Shown: positions 12,401 through 17,102 of the stretch, one piece after another
Layout of the letters: each line of letters begins with the position of its first letter
Position numbering within the stretch: the stretch's first letter is position 1
From: Cytophagales bacterium
GTDB lineage: Bacteria > Bacteroidota > Bacteroidia > Cytophagales > Spirosomataceae
DNA length: 64,000 nt
Direction: 5' to 3'
NCBI GenBank assembly: GCA_013298215.1
Contig: JAAFKE010000011.1
Coordinates: forward strand, 1 to 64,000
Program-made: the position numbers and the translations under genes
The notes under the pieces: model-generated
Database searches by the model: none
What the model was told of the DNA's origin: nothing
What the model saw: only the letters and a program-made list of their open reading frames with translations

Positions 12401-12722
12401 TCCTGTTTCAGGAACGGGAGCCACCCTTGCTTTTGGGAACCAAACCACCGCAGGTACGTACAGCGTGGAGGCCACCAGAACAAGCGGTAGTTGCGTGGGT
12501 ATGATGTTGGGAACTGCCGTAGTTGCGCTACCGCAACCAACCCTTAATTTGACCTTAAACATCAATTCGGGAACGATTGTGTACGTGGCTGACCAAATTA
12601 CCGCCATCAACCAAGTGATGAGTTCGACGGTAGAATACCGAGGCGCGCAGTCGGTGATGTTACAGCCTGGTTTTGTGGCATCGGGGAATGTTTTCAGGGC
12701 GTTTATTGGCGGCTGTAATTAA
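9426..12722 (+). CDS. Secreted ExeM/NucH-type extracellular endonuclease
   Basis: Probable extracellular DNase for nutrient or biofilm DNA. In the 1098-residue product: signal peptide (1 to about 26, GYSQ); an N-terminal extracellular domain; an Ig-like Big_5 domain at about 241-343 (PPTVSSTIPANNA start); an OB-fold domain of the YhcR type at about 350-470; and an endonuclease/exonuclease/phosphatase domain at about 635-941. The last has its catalytic signatures: VASFNVLNYF, LMELED, LGDLNAYSKEDP, LDHALG and SSDHDAI. The C-terminus (about 1045-1098, ending LQPGFVASGNVFRAFIGGC) resembles the coathanger-stack tail of Cytophagales surface proteins and may anchor or sort it. The ATG at 9426 follows a longer in-frame lead that would spoil the signal peptide. 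A LytTR gene follows by 13 bp. Confidence 0.92.
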   Translation: MKKNIQNCLRFVGAICLLASLQGYSQVSLTEASNAASQDFNTLASSGTNAWTDNSVLSGWYANHTGLSNYLIGTGSAVTGGLYSFGASAATDRALGSVCSNGTGAIRHGVRVKNNGASNITSLTVAYTGEQWRNGGNTTAHKLDFAYSNPAATVTSVTVGTFIDLNTLDFTGPIATATTAALDGNAAANRTVIAAQTITVTIPAGQEIMLRWEDLNDTGNDHGLAVDDLTVTATFSGSSTDVPPTVSSTIPANNAMSVAVAATITINFSEAVDVAASAFSVSPSVTFTTSPALPATNVTSVVLTPSASLANATAYTVATDATKVTDKDGTADQMAANNVFSFTTIAAPGACAVTNLISAIQGSGSTAALTGTRTIQGIVVSDFQNVTGTTNLGGFYVQEETADSDGNPATSEGIFVFEGTGAFLTNVAVGDRVCITGTVAEFTSSTSSLTQMTVSAAANIVVSSSGNALPAATSVQLPVANVSDLERYEGMLVNLSASTGNLVVTENFQLGRFGQLILATNGSSNQTGTDARLDQYTQYNLPSTSGYATYLADIAKRRIYLDDGRGVQNPDPIIFGRGGNPLSAANTLRGGDEVATVAGILDERFEGYRIQTLTSPNFLATNARSTTPPSVGASTLKVASFNVLNYFNGNGSGGGFPTPRGANNAAEFTRQRDKIISAIVGTGADVLGLMELEDDGYGSASAIQDLVNGLNAVAGAGTYTFVNPGDISSDEITVGIVYKPAAVELVGAAAAIPFAFGTGSFTVVGRRSLAQTIKQKSNNEIFTLVVSHFKSKGSSSGGAGDADANDGQALSNGTRTRQATDLKDWLATKPTGTNDTDYLVLGDLNAYSKEDPLTTLATAGYNNLLPAASYSYVFDGQTGSLDHALGTGSLASQMTGADDWHINADEPTALDYNTEFKTAGQVTSLYNTSPFRSSDHDAILIGLNLQTCISPVAFNVTGGGTICNGVGVAVGLSNSETGVTYQLKNGATNVGSPVSGTGATLAFGNQTTAGTYSVEATRTSGSCVGMMLGTAVVALPQPTLNLTLNINSGTIVYVADQITAINQVMSSTVEYRGAQSVMLQPGFVASGNVFRAFIGGCN

Positions 12723-12735
12723 AAACATTGACACA

Positions 12736-13083
12736 ATGAACACCATCTCGCTTCCTTCCCAATACTACAACTACAACCATCAGCTCCCTTTTGACTGGTT
12801 GCAAGTTTTGCGCTTAGAAGCCCATCGCAATTATACGGCGTTTATCCTCAAAAATGGAGATAAATACCTTTCTACCAAAACGTTAGGAAACTACGAACCT
12901 TTTTTGCCCCCCTATTTTATTCGCATTCACAAGAGTTTTATCGTGAACGCAGAGGCCATTTTAAGGGTCAATCATTCTGCTAAAACCATTTTGTTGCAAG
13001 ACGGTTTTATTATTAATGTTGCCCGCAGGCGTTGGAAATCAGTACGTACAAAAAACTTCCAGAGTAGTCCGAGTGCCGTCTAA
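12736..13083 (+). CDS. LytTR-domain DNA-binding protein without receiver
   Basis: The 115-residue protein is essentially one LytTR DNA-binding domain: LQVLRLEAHRNYTAF near the start, then YLSTKTLGNYEPFLPP and FIRIHKSFIVN, the usual beta-strand/recognition pattern. No receiver, membrane or sensor part is present, so it would act alone or with an unlinked sensor. It begins 13 bp after the secreted nuclease and is probably co-transcribed, which makes control of the nuclease or of DNA uptake a reasonable guess. The C-terminal RRRWKSVRTK tail is basic. Confidence 0.85.
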   Translation: MNTISLPSQYYNYNHQLPFDWLQVLRLEAHRNYTAFILKNGDKYLSTKTLGNYEPFLPPYFIRIHKSFIVNAEAILRVNHSAKTILLQDGFIINVARRRWKSVRTKNFQSSPSAV

Positions 13084-13156
13084 TGCAATTTCTAAACGCG
13101 GTAATCTTACCCCGGCATGGTTGCAGTATTTTTTATTACACTACATTTGCGTCAGT

Positions 13157-13410
13157 TTTAGGTGCTGGTTGTCCGCAAGCCTTGCGGACTATGCAGCTTA
13201 ATAGGGAATTTGGTGCAAAACCAAAGCTGTTCCCGCAACTGTGAGTTCTGTTACAAATTGCTTTTTCTACTTTCGCCACTGGTTTTGTGTTGGTTCATAA
13301 AAGAGGGTCGGGTGCGGTGCTTTCGCTGCAACGCAACGCCCACAAAACCGCCACATAAAAAACTGGGAAGGCCACAAAAGCAACGGAACAAGTCAGGAGA
13401 CCTGCCTAAG
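13157..13410 (+). promoter_or_regulatory. Cobalamin (B12) riboswitch aptamer
   Basis: The conserved core is plain: GGGAATTTGGTGCAAAACC (13204-13222), GCTGTTCCCGCAACTGTGA (13226-13244) containing the B12 box, and AGTCAGGAGACCTGCC (13391-13406). Adenosyl- or methylcobalamin binding would repress the genes downstream, a BtuB-like receptor and a BtuG-like lipoprotein, which fits exactly. About 145 nt separate the B12 box from the CAGGAGACCTGCC block, longer than in compact members, so one peripheral helix is probably extended. It fills most of the 423-bp gap after the LytTR gene. Confidence 0.93.
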
Positions 13411-13435
13411 ATCATTCTTGGTTGCCGTGTACGGA

Positions 13436-13509
13436 GGATGCACCCAGCCGAGCGTTCGATTTCATTTTCATAACTTGGTTTTGTGCCGAGGCATCCTGAT
13501 AGGTGCATG
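13436..13509 (+). promoter_or_regulatory. Riboswitch expression platform masking the btuB start
   Basis: ATGCACC at 13438-13444 is the exact complement of GGTGCAT at 13502-13508, which includes the first two bases of the ATG at 13507. An overlapping GGATGC at 13436-13441 is the complement of GCATCC at 13491-13496. The pairings are mutually exclusive, as expected for a translational on/off switch. Pairing is seen in sequence; the switching is inferred. Confidence 0.6.
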
Positions 13510-15444
13510 ATTTTGGGTATTTACACCAAAAGACTTATTTGCGTCTGGCTGTTTTTGCTGCCAGTACATGCCACGTTTGCCCAACCCGACAGCACGCGCA
13601 ACCTGCCCACCGCAACGGTGCGGGGCTACGCGCCCGAGCGGTTTATGGGCGGTCTCAAAATTCAGCGCGCCGACTCCGCCCTGGCCGAGGTGTACAGGTT
13701 TCAGACCCTGGCCGATTTTTTAGCCACCCAAGCTCCGCTTCAACTCAAAAACTACGGCGCGGGGCAGCTCACCACGGTGGGGTTTAGAGGCACGTCGGCC
13801 AACCACACGGCGGTGCTCTGGAACGGCATAAACATCAATTCACCCACACTCGGCCAAACCGATTTTTCGACCATTCCGATGGCGGGTTTCGACCAGCTTT
13901 CGGTGCAGTACGGCGCGGCTGCCAGCTGCGTGGGCACAGATGCCGTGGGCGGGAGCGTTTTGCTGGGATCGGTGCCAAACTTCAAAAAAATGGGCGCGGT
14001 GTCGGTTCAGCTCGGCCAGCGGTGGGCCAGTTTTGGCAACCACCAAACGCAAGCGGGCGTTCGTTTTGCGTCGGTGTTGGGTGCCAACTGGCGGCTGTCG
14101 AGCAAAACGTTGCTCTACGGCGGGCGGCTCAACAACCGCTTTCCACACGCCGAACGGCGCGGCTACCCCATCGAACCATCTCTGACGACCCAAAACGGTT
14201 TGGTACAAGATTTTTATTTTAGAAATAAACAAGCGCATCAATTTTCTGTAAACATCTGGCTGTCAGACAACAAGCTAACCTTAGCGCCTAACGATGCCGT
14301 GAGCCGCGAGACAACCCGCACGCAGGCATACCGTTTTTTGGGCAATTACGAAGCGGGCAAACTGCTGTTGCGGGCGGGTTTTATTCGGGATCTGATCGAC
14401 TACGGAAAAGGCCCAGACTTTGACACTTCCCCCAGCCATTCGCAAACCGATCGGTTTATTGCCCGGGCCGAACGCGAGTTTGACCTCGCCAAGCCCAGAA
14501 TAACCGCGCGGCTGGGTGGCGAAGTGGTGCATTATCGCACCCAAACGGACGGATACGGCAACAGCGTAATCTCAGAAAACCGCGCCGATTTGTACGCCCT
14601 ACTTCGCTACCAACCCACCGACAAATGGCTCGTTTCGTTGAACCTACGACAAGCCTTCGTTACGCGCTTCGACCCACCTTTCACGCCATCGCTCGGAACC
14701 GAATGTCGCCTTAAAAATACTGATAGTCAGACTATTACTCTAAAAGCCAACGCTGGCCGTAGCTACCGCGTACCAACGCTCAACGAACGCTACTGGCGCA
14801 CACTGGGCAACCCAGACGTGCGCCCCGAGAGTGGTTTTAACAAAGAAGTGGGGGTGGAAATAAAACAAAAACCATCGCCCAGATTAAGCGTATCGAGTAA
14901 CTTGACGGTTTTTCACAATCGGATGGACGACTGGACCTACTGGAACCCCGACCGAGGCTACCGCGTAGAAAACTTGCAATTGGTGGTGGCACGCGGAGTA
15001 GAGTTGCAGGCCAGTGGCGCCTATAAATCGGCGGGTTTGCTGGCGGGTTTTTTCGCGCAGTATGCCCTCACGCGCAGCTCGCAAGAGCGCATTTATGACC
15101 CCACAGCGCAGGATGTAGTGGGCAAGCAGCTCGTTTATTTGCCTCTCCACACGGGTTCGGCCAATGTTTTTGTGGAGTTTCCGAAGTTATCTAAACTAAA
15201 ACAAACGCGCCTCACCGTGCTTTGGCAGGGCAGCAGCCGGCGCTATTATACCTTCGACAACAGCAAGTATATCGACGGTTTTCAGCTCGTGAACCTCGTG
15301 GCAGAAACCAGCGTAGAGACCGCAAAAACCCGCGCCAAAATAAGTGTTCAGGCCGATAATATTTTCGATGCGCTCTACCTGAACGTCAAACGCAACGCCA
15401 TGCCTGGCCGCAGTTTTGCCATAAATTTCAATTTTATTTTTTAA
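13507..15444 (+). CDS. TonB-dependent vitamin B12 receptor (BtuB-like)
   Basis: Outer-membrane receptor importing cobalamin with TonB energy. The 645 residues begin with a signal peptide (1 to about 25, HATFAQ), a plug domain at about 35-150 (LADFLATQAPLQLKNYGAGQ, FRGTSANHTAVLWNGI, VGGSVLLGS) and a 22-strand-type barrel ending in aromatic FNFIF. The start at 13507 was chosen because it gives the signal peptide and lies in the riboswitch expression platform. B12 specificity is inferred from the upstream cobalamin riboswitch and the downstream BtuG-like gene, since the receptor sequence alone only shows the family. It is shorter than SusC-type receptors and lacks their carboxypeptidase-like N-terminal domain, as is normal for BtuB. 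Confidence 0.9.
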   Translation: MILGIYTKRLICVWLFLLPVHATFAQPDSTRNLPTATVRGYAPERFMGGLKIQRADSALAEVYRFQTLADFLATQAPLQLKNYGAGQLTTVGFRGTSANHTAVLWNGININSPTLGQTDFSTIPMAGFDQLSVQYGAAASCVGTDAVGGSVLLGSVPNFKKMGAVSVQLGQRWASFGNHQTQAGVRFASVLGANWRLSSKTLLYGGRLNNRFPHAERRGYPIEPSLTTQNGLVQDFYFRNKQAHQFSVNIWLSDNKLTLAPNDAVSRETTRTQAYRFLGNYEAGKLLLRAGFIRDLIDYGKGPDFDTSPSHSQTDRFIARAEREFDLAKPRITARLGGEVVHYRTQTDGYGNSVISENRADLYALLRYQPTDKWLVSLNLRQAFVTRFDPPFTPSLGTECRLKNTDSQTITLKANAGRSYRVPTLNERYWRTLGNPDVRPESGFNKEVGVEIKQKPSPRLSVSSNLTVFHNRMDDWTYWNPDRGYRVENLQLVVARGVELQASGAYKSAGLLAGFFAQYALTRSSQERIYDPTAQDVVGKQLVYLPLHTGSANVFVEFPKLSKLKQTRLTVLWQGSSRRYYTFDNSKYIDGFQLVNLVAETSVETAKTRAKISVQADNIFDALYLNVKRNAMPGRSFAINFNFIF

Positions 15445-15469: not shown

Positions 15470-16558
15470 ATGAACGCACTAAAACAATTATTTTACGCCG
15501 CAATTATCACCCTCGCGCTGGCATCTTGCGGCAAAAATCCAGAACCCAGCCAACCCTACGACGACGGAGTGTTGGTAATAAATGTGGGAAATTTTTTGGA
15601 CAATAACGGCTCTCTTTCTTTGCTAAAACGAGACACGAAAACGGCAGATTTGGATGTTTTTACGAAAGAAAATGCCCGCCCACTAACGGGTGGAATCAGC
15701 GGATATGCCGAGATAGACGGCAAGGGAATCATCTTGGTCGATAACGCAACGGCGGGTTTAGACAAGGTCGAAATAGTGAATGCCCGCACCCTAAAATCGG
15801 TGGCTACGCTTACCGCCCCCGACATTGAAAACCCGCGTGCGGTGGTGGGCGTGGGCACCAGCAAGGCGTATGTGTCGTGCTGGGGAGCCACGGGTTCGGG
15901 CGCGAATTTTTTTGCTAATTCAGGCTACGTAGCCGTTATTGACTTGATTACCAATAAGTTAATTAAAAAAATAGCCGTGCAAAAAGGCGCGGAGGGGATT
16001 GTAATTGTGGGCAATCAGGCTTTTGTGGGTGGCACGGGTGGCGACCGACTCATTAACGTGATCGACATGGCCCGAGACGAAGCCACCGCCACCATTGCCG
16101 CTGGTGCGGGAGATGCGGGCGAATTGCGCGTGGACGCGAACAACAAAATTTGGACATTTGTTGGCCGCGAAGCCGTCCGGATCGACCCTGCCTCGCGCAC
16201 CATCGAAGCCAGGATTAGGGTTGGAACAAGCACCACCAAAAGCCCAGGAAACTTGACGATGAGCGCCGACCGAAAGACCATGTTTTTTACCCATACTTTT
16301 TTCGATGCCGCCGATAATTTTAAACAAAAAGGCGAAATGTACAGTTTTAACGTTGCTGATCCCGTGATAGCAGCCAACGCGCCAGTAGTTAGTCGGGTGT
16401 TCACGGGCCTTGGATTTGATCCTGAAAGCAACTTGCTCTACGCTGGCTTCACGCCAAGTTTTAAACAAGCGGGCTTTGTTTTTCGTTATCAATCTAATGG
16501 CCAGTTGGTCGACTCGGTTAAGGTAGAGATTGCGCCGAGCGGCTTTTGGTTTAAATAG
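15470..16558 (+). CDS. BtuG-like surface lipoprotein (DUF5074/YncE-type beta propeller)
   Basis: Probable surface-exposed B12-capture lipoprotein. The 362 residues start with a lipoprotein signal whose lipobox LASC places the lipidated Cys at 20. The rest shows seven-bladed-propeller-like repeats (VLVINVGNF, GYVAVIDLITNKL, RLINVIDMARDEATATI, KIWTFVGREAVRIDP). In Bacteroides, BtuG proteins of this form lie beside btuB and bind B12 very tightly before passing it to the receptor. The gene begins 25 bp after btuB, under the same cobalamin riboswitch. The propeller family is broad, so the B12 role rests on context more than on identifiable ligand residues. Confidence 0.8.
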   Translation: MNALKQLFYAAIITLALASCGKNPEPSQPYDDGVLVINVGNFLDNNGSLSLLKRDTKTADLDVFTKENARPLTGGISGYAEIDGKGIILVDNATAGLDKVEIVNARTLKSVATLTAPDIENPRAVVGVGTSKAYVSCWGATGSGANFFANSGYVAVIDLITNKLIKKIAVQKGAEGIVIVGNQAFVGGTGGDRLINVIDMARDEATATIAAGAGDAGELRVDANNKIWTFVGREAVRIDPASRTIEARIRVGTSTTKSPGNLTMSADRKTMFFTHTFFDAADNFKQKGEMYSFNVADPVIAANAPVVSRVFTGLGFDPESNLLYAGFTPSFKQAGFVFRYQSNGQLVDSVKVEIAPSGFWFK

Positions 16559-16574
16559 TTTAAAATTAGTCATT

Positions 16575-17102
16575 ATGTTTGACCTGTCCCCAAGCACCCA
16601 AACCGATAGTTTCAAGGAAAGAAACGTGTTGTTTCCGATTTTGTCTGCCGATTTTCTGACCCGTCCCGTGAGCCTTGGCAGTGCCGAGCAAACCGACTTC
16701 AGCTTGCTCAGTCAATTGGCGCTTCAAAACAATTGGGTATGGAACAAGCAACTCGTGAGATCGCTCCTACGCAACCAGCACCGCACCATCGTTGTGACCG
16801 ACCCCGCGCGCGTGATCCAGTACGTAAGCAGCGGCTTCGAGAAAATGACGGGCTATAGCTCCAAATTTGCCATCGGCAAACGCCCCGACTTTCTGCAAGG
16901 TACTCGGACTGATATGCTGGTGAAACAAAAATTAAGAACGCAGTTTTCGGCCAAAGAAACCGTGAAGGTAGATTTGGTGAACTACAAGAAGTCGGGCGAA
17001 GAATACATTTGCCGCGTAGAAATAGAGCCAATTTGCGATACCTCGGGCGAGTTAAAACATTTTCTGGCCATCGAGTGGGACATAACTACCACCACGCCCT
17101 AA
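16575..17102 (+). CDS. PAS-domain protein (LOV-like, without photoactive Cys)
   Basis: The 175-residue single-domain sensor has a PAS fold at about 65-172: VTDPARVIQYVSSGFEKMTGYS, GKRPDFLQGTRTD and a C-terminal WDIT. The GK-RPDFLQG segment is laid out like the GRNCRFLQG motif of LOV flavin photoreceptors, but Pro stands where the flavin-bonding Cys would be, so classical LOV chemistry is not possible. There is no output domain, so it may bind a partner. The ATG at 16575 follows the btuG-like stop by 16 bp and could be read through from that operon. A two-way terminator follows. The N-terminal 60 residues are not assigned. Confidence 0.8.
   Translation: MFDLSPSTQTDSFKERNVLFPILSADFLTRPVSLGSAEQTDFSLLSQLALQNNWVWNKQLVRSLLRNQHRTIVVTDPARVIQYVSSGFEKMTGYSSKFAIGKRPDFLQGTRTDMLVKQKLRTQFSAKETVKVDLVNYKKSGEEYICRVEIEPICDTSGELKHFLAIEWDITTTTP

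Follow-up and report, generated by a model that had tools for sequence, protein, structure and literature searches.

A cobalamin riboswitch before a btuB-like gene of a Cytophagales bacterium, with a probable output hairpin at the start codon

The adenosylcobalamin riboswitch of Escherichia coli btuB has been described as a device in which P13 takes part in a pseudoknot, P14 controls access to the Shine-Dalgarno (SD) sequence and an alternative helix forms in the ON state (PMC11162775). For Priestia megaterium, the pairing of CCG in loop L5 with CGG in loop L13 has been mapped by mutation (PMC10653944). Flavobacterium is reported to initiate translation without SD sequences and to tune it partly through structures close to the start codon (PMC6847099), which makes a hairpin abutting the start codon a sensible switch in such organisms. 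In our family survey, 147 of the 150 sampled genomes have a match to the cobalamin riboswitch model RF00174, and the ribosomes of this phylum largely ignore the SD sequence; it is therefore fair to ask how translational control by a riboswitch could be achieved there. Judging by titles and the openings of abstracts among the matches listed, in a search with subscription journals mostly outside its coverage, we found no description of such a start-codon platform from the phylum.

Here we describe a locus in a stretch of 64,000 nucleotides from a Cytophagales bacterium (contig JAAFKE010000011.1, positions 1 to 64,000 of the forward strand), which we call the window. The locus belongs to the known cobalamin riboswitch class, and its output end is unusual and SD-free. 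It supplies a concrete and testable layout for an SD-free translational riboswitch. A first-pass annotation of the window had proposed a cobalamin riboswitch with an expression platform at the btuB start codon, and this general claim is supported here.

The aptamer and the genes behind it

The locus is a genuine cobalamin riboswitch. A cmscan search gives an RF00174 match of 94.7 bits, far above the gathering score of 31.5 bits and covering model positions 1-189, which is the sole Rfam match above threshold in the whole window. It is also the single RF00174 match in its own genome (3.55 Mb), which codes for a B12-dependent methionine synthase as well. The riboswitch that the first-pass annotation had placed at 13157-13509 is thus real, although its range begins 14 bases inside the model match. 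The B12 box and the second conserved block of that annotation are both present, with a change of names: in ordinary usage CAGGAGACCTGCC is the B12 box itself, and the upstream conserved block is CCCGCAACTGT.

Read from the sequence, about 150 nt lie between CCCGCAACTGT and CAGGAGACCTGCC, where about 145 nt had been given as a sign of a long peripheral arm; in the RF00174 alignment this arm has 74 nt in place of 4 model positions. The extension is real, yet it is not unique to the window. By our measure of the arm, the window has 164 where the median is 90, and a value of at least 150 is reached by 11 of the 108 distinct family loci among the matches listed, several of the long-arm loci having been fetched for their resemblance to the window.

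These family loci were taken from among the RF00174 matches listed. An early motif was failed by 32 of 131 loci; 119 of 153 could be parsed, 108 of them distinct, and the later tests used 98, 63 or 79 of these 108. Start codons of the family loci were assigned by a heuristic, and some of them look wrong. In at least six genomes (G047, G075, G086, G111, G119 and G124) we see divergent pairs of cobalamin riboswitches, lying on opposite strands 68 to 125 bases apart, such as L002 with L070, L012 with L068 and L017 with L058.

The riboswitch precedes B12-related genes, namely a TonB-dependent receptor and a BtuG-like DUF5074 protein (Table 1). The best name for the receptor is TIGR01779 (TonB-B12), with a score of 82.3 bits that is far below the cut-off of 599.7. 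Its start at ATG 13507 agrees with the relative L132 (see below), which the protein resembles from the methionine onward; immediately before it, the two DNAs are unequal in length by 1 nt. The DUF5074 gene begins 25 bases after the btuB-like gene, and we infer that both are on one transcript. Chains B of the PDB entries 8p97 and 8okv, the best relatives of solved structure for the DUF5074 protein, are what we take to be the BtuG proteins of Bacteroides BtuBG complexes. Since a TonB-B12-like receptor stands next to a DUF5074 protein with such relatives, the unit looks like a B12 uptake system of the BtuB/BtuG type.

Further genes lie on either side. A protein with a LytTR DNA-binding domain (12673-13083) is encoded directly before the riboswitch and on its strand. 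A PAS protein (16530-17102) has the YtvA blue-light family as its nearest match, at 1.5e-22 and 80.3 bits where the cut-off is 250. LOV domains carry GRNCRFLQ at the motif where this PAS protein has GKRPDFLQG, apparently without the light-reactive cysteine.

Table 1. Features of the riboswitch locus and of the genes that follow it (window coordinates)
Feature	Position	Strand	Basis
Cobalamin riboswitch aptamer (RF00174)	13143..13423	+	cmscan, 94.7 bits, E 2.7e-22
P1 5' strand GUUUUAGG, pairing with CCUAAGAU at 13405-13412	13155..13162	+	RF00174 alignment and sequence reading
L5 loop UUCCCG, putative kissing partner of L13	13230..13235	+	UCCCG consensus of L5 (PMC10653944); L5:L13 duplex -6.6 kcal/mol
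Extended peripheral arm (GCCACUG...CGGGAAGGC; limits approximate)	13275..13380	+	RF00174 alignment, length comparison
CAGGAGACCTGCC block	13394..13406	+	RF00174 alignment and sequence
P13 stem-loop: 13417-13424 with 13445-13452, inner 13427-13429 with 13441-13443	13417..13452	+	covariation
L13 loop UACGGAGGAUG, 11 nt; CGG at 13432-13434 could kiss L5; AGGAUG as proposed anti-mask strand	13430..13440	+	
Upstream hairpin CUUGGU/GCCGAG, adjoining the start hairpin	13474..13490	+	free fold
Shared strand S (GCAUCCU), able to pair with T or L13	13491..13497	+	sequence, folds, shuffles, relatives
Proposed masking strand T (GGUGC), ending at -1 of the start codon	13502..13506	+	S:T hairpin in the minimum-energy fold
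btuB-like TonB-dependent receptor, start ATG 13507	13507..15444	+	PF00593 1.6e-30, PF07715 5.4e-12
DUF5074 YncE-like protein, BtuG-like	15470..16558	+	PF16819 1.8e-16; PDB 8p97_B 4.6e-12, 8okv_B 2.3e-11

The P13 stem and its loop

The P13 stem is supported by covariation. Our alignment A2 contains 63 family rows (59 distinct) that were picked by the motifs [AT]CGG-N2-3-ATG and GAGYG. In the 59 distinct rows, 89.9% of the P13 cells are paired, as compared to 69.6% in shuffles, and the covariation score of 0.585 (0.202 in shuffles) was reached by none of the 500 shuffles. Pairs that have changed on both sides number 8 of 11 against 7.8 in shuffles, and the cells with such changes 144 against 45.3. 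Note that the rows were picked by those motifs, so the invariance of the CGG, ATG and GAG letters in this alignment is uninformative; the varying pairs of P13 are unaffected.

Beyond these rows, the sequence [AT]CGG occurs within 80 bases past the aptamer in 107 of the 108 distinct family loci among the matches listed, which is a loose test, and 67 of those 107 loci have the form [AT]CGG-N2-3-ATG. For the isolated L5:L13 duplex we calculate -6.6 kcal/mol (window) and -4.4 kcal/mol (L132), and this complementarity suggests that the two loops may kiss in the window.

The form [AT]CGG-N2-3-ATG in L13 is accompanied by GAGYG after P13 in 63 of the 108 distinct family loci (13430-13461 in the window). 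Sixty of these 63 loci read GAGCGNNNG (in the window GAGCGTTCGA) and the remaining 3 read GAGTGCTTTT. We looked in the 63-locus alignment A2 for a role of the AUG in the L13 loop and of CGNNNG after the stem, and found none.

One further pairing was considered and is not supported. An alternative stem P13', in which AUUCUU pairs with GGAGGAU and which came from one constrained fold, has 91.0% of its cells paired, yet no pair has changed on both sides and its covariation of 0.081 is close to that of the shuffles (0.074). For the stretch before P13 with L13, the longest helix is 5.79 against 5.37 in shuffles.

A hairpin at the start codon

In the free fold, two hairpins lie between P13 and the gene. 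One of them pairs 13474-13479 with 13485-13490, the other joins S (13491-13495) to T (13502-13506). The latter adjoins the AUG, and there is no usable SD: the window has AGG at -6 to -4, where the spacing is too short, and L132 has AGA. A hairpin at the ribosome entry site after P13 is thus present in the window and in L132, as far as sequence and folding go, and the output end of the riboswitch probably works by this small hairpin folded against the start codon. This hairpin ending at -1, as well as P13 and the L5-L13 kissing loop, is absent from the first-pass description. On the other hand, the strands named there are exactly where they had been placed, with ATGCACC at 13438-13444, GGTGCAT at 13502-13508, GGATGC at 13436-13441, GCATCC at 13491-13496 and the start ATG at 13507-13509. 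Seen against the layout of P13 and L13, both pairings that had been proposed between these strands make use of the kissing loop and the inner 3' side of P13. The pairing of GGATGC with GCATCC lengthens to 7 bp (AGGATGC 13435-13441 with GCATCCT 13491-13497). As S is this same GCATCC strand and a 7-bp complement of L13, it has two possible partners, T and L13.

We propose that S swaps between these partners, pairing either with T, which would mask the start, or with L13, which would free it, and that B12 decides by occupying L13 through L5. We give this a probability of roughly 0.45. Once plentiful adenosylcobalamin or a relative of it had bound, L13 would kiss L5 and P13 would be locked; the S:T hairpin would form against the AUG and keep the 30S subunit off, and less of the BtuB-like (probably also of the BtuG-like) uptake protein would be made. 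Without ligand, the free L13 would capture S by 7 bp as S leaves the polymerase, before T exists, so that T and the AUG would remain open. Under this partner swap B12 would repress, as expected for uptake genes. That L13 chooses between L5 and the 5' strand of the start hairpin with P13 intact throughout, and that this choice replaces the hiding of an SD in a phylum with little use for SD pairing, appears less likely than not to us.

The folding energies place the two states close to each other. For isolated duplexes we find -7.8 (L13:S) and -5.4 kcal/mol (S:T) in the window, and -6.8 and -6.6 kcal/mol in L132. In constrained folds, the masked and anti-masked states have -30.5 and -31.6 in the window and -45.2 and -44.2 in L132, about 1 kcal/mol apart. 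L13:S with an intact P13 is a pseudoknot, which the folding programs used do not score; when L13:S is forced in nested folds, GUGUAC 5' of the loop re-pairs the start in the window, and opening the start in the anti-masked nested fold costs 6.3 kcal/mol (6.5 in L132). By these energies the start is thus not clearly opened. With P1 blocked, the minimum contains P13 and S:T in both the window and L132; a longer segment of the window favoured a different fold without P13. The three letters of the AUG are unpaired in the masked state with probabilities of 0.55, 0.48 and 0.43 in the window and 1.00, 0.29 and 0.03 in L132. With such partial pairing, the mask would work chiefly by adjoining the AUG. 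In local folding energy around the start, the window ranks 4th and L132 8th of 98 family loci. The L132 leader forms a more stable fold than shuffled versions of it (z -3.8, 0 of 60); for the window the difference is weak (z -1.3, p 0.10), and the family mean is -0.32.

How often would such an arrangement be expected by chance? In 5000 shuffles of the leader, a hairpin abutting the start appeared 410 times, and 508 times some part of the leader was complementary to L13 over 6 bp. Both together, that is a start hairpin whose 5' strand is also complementary to L13 over 6 bp, were seen 6 times, with the criterion set post hoc.

The same layout recurs in L132 (REAB01000188.1, from a Cytophagia MAG), the nearest relative to have it, whose BtuB is 72% identical; another locus, L135, is the same platform retrieved again. 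The leader of L132 has an insertion of 41 columns, and nevertheless the start block is kept, with GCATCT/AGATGC immediately before the ATG. Its L13 reads AAGATGC and its S reads GCATCTT, so L13:S stays at 7 bp through one change from G-C to A-U, and the C-to-U change in S improves S:T as well. The GGATGC:GCATCC pairing of the first-pass annotation therefore holds in L132 too and fits better as an anti-mask. ACGGAAGATG is present in three other family loci as well, hence the change in L13 is not special to L132. A further relative, L133 (BtuB 65%), has P13 and no start hairpin, and its start codon is uncertain. The btuB frame of L133 (JALOLW010000116.1) has no ATG at the start position of the window; it reads ACG there, or else a TTG start would be needed, and the missing ATG may be real or an assembly error.

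Among the matches listed, the window and L132 are the only ones of 79 family loci examined that have a hairpin abutting the start, and in both of them L13 matches the 5' strand of that hairpin by a 6-bp complement. As the two are homologous, they represent one origin that was kept, not two. Over the 79 of 108 distinct loci that were compared, no family-wide complementarity of P13/L13 to the leader was found (mean z 0.14), and the same coarse measure gives z -1.1 (p 0.15) for the window and 0.08 (p 0.5) for L132, neither value being significant. With this mean z, and a start hairpin in only 2 of 79 loci, we rejected sequestering as a general, family-wide layout. Conservation speaks for the platform through two related species and one compensatory pair, and the evidence as a whole is thin.

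The main rival explanation retains the riboswitch and lets it act by termination of transcription, intrinsic or Rho-dependent, with the start hairpin incidental or additive. We see this as a serious possibility, if short of even odds. Termination has been proposed for the cobalamin riboswitches of Bacteroides thetaiotaomicron (PMC12751083), and 10 of 15 Gram-negative taxa are reported to use it (PMC12121620). In the window, a weak terminator-like site with the tail ATGATTTTGG (13491-13506) falls on the S:T hairpin, but it consists of 5 pairs and an interrupted U tail, short of a GC-rich hairpin with a U-run; counting both strands, the region has 2 such sites where shuffles have 0.8 on average, and the tail is not kept in L132, where it reads AUGAUUGG. 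In 3 of the 108 distinct family loci (L019, L024 and L025), P13 is closely followed by a run of U in the manner of an intrinsic terminator, whereas the window has no U-run directly behind P13.

The remaining explanations concern other partners of the start region. The first-pass annotation lets AUGCACC, which lies partly in L13, pair with GGUGCAU and so cover the start codon; read as a mechanism, L13 would mask the start and ligand would free it. This duplex is a perfect one of 7 bp and -9.6 kcal/mol, and a 7-bp Watson-Crick match of L13 to positions -8 to +6 of the start arose in 48 of 5000 shuffles. In L132, however, it shrinks to 5 bp and -4.4 kcal/mol, and a fold that is forced to contain it has -27.9 against -30.5 for P13 with S:T (-35.6 against -45.2 in L132). 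Should L13 be available in the ligand-free state only, this duplex would keep the gene off as long as B12 is lacking; such induction by B12 is the opposite of the usual sign for B12 uptake genes, and we consider this mechanism improbable. Slightly harder still to credit is a pairing that an unfolded aptamer would allow, between the 3' strand of P1, CCUAAGAUCAU (13405-13415), and AUGAUUUUGGG at the start. Its 11 consecutive pairs do appear in the minimum-energy fold; they are lost in L132 (CCUAAAACCAU as compared to AUGAUUGGCGG) and the sign of control would again be wrong. AUUCUU is frequent ahead of P13 across the family alignment, so part of this match exists for another reason. Finally, the AUG in L13 (13438) could start a leader peptide coupled to btuB, an idea to which we attach the least weight of all. 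There is a GGAGG before this AUG, and in L132 the frame runs for 37 codons to a UGA that overlaps the AUG of btuB. The frame is not conserved, though, since it stops after 11 codons in the window and after 4 in L003, and the GAGCG after P13 falls in differing frames; moreover, Bacteroidia ribosomes are reported not to recognise SD sequences (PMC9976891).

Comparison with described systems

The nearest described system is the adenosylcobalamin riboswitch of E. coli btuB (PMC11162775), which has the same aptamer class, a P13 pseudoknot and the same target gene. Also alike is a hairpin after P13, which in the window would govern ribosome access, and the alternative ON helix would have its counterpart in the helix that we propose for the window. 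By this analogy, the locus may work like E. coli btuB. The difference lies in what is hidden: as described, P14 of E. coli hides the SD, whereas the hairpin of the window ends at -1 of the AUG and the hidden element would be something other than an SD. Furthermore, the proposed ON helix of the window would use the loop L13 itself.

The metE corrinoid riboswitch of Priestia megaterium (PMC10653944) resembles the window in CCG of L5 with CGG of L13 and in an alternative pairing, proposed for the window, between P13 and a downstream hairpin. As it is described, however, its downstream hairpin is a transcription terminator, and the strand used for the alternative pairing comes from the 3' side of P13 and not from L13. 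The btu operons of Bacteroides thetaiotaomicron (PMC12751083) are likewise riboswitch-controlled and combine btuB with genes for BtuG-type lipoproteins. They differ in that premature termination of transcription is proposed for them and in that several operons are present, whereas here the genome has one riboswitch.
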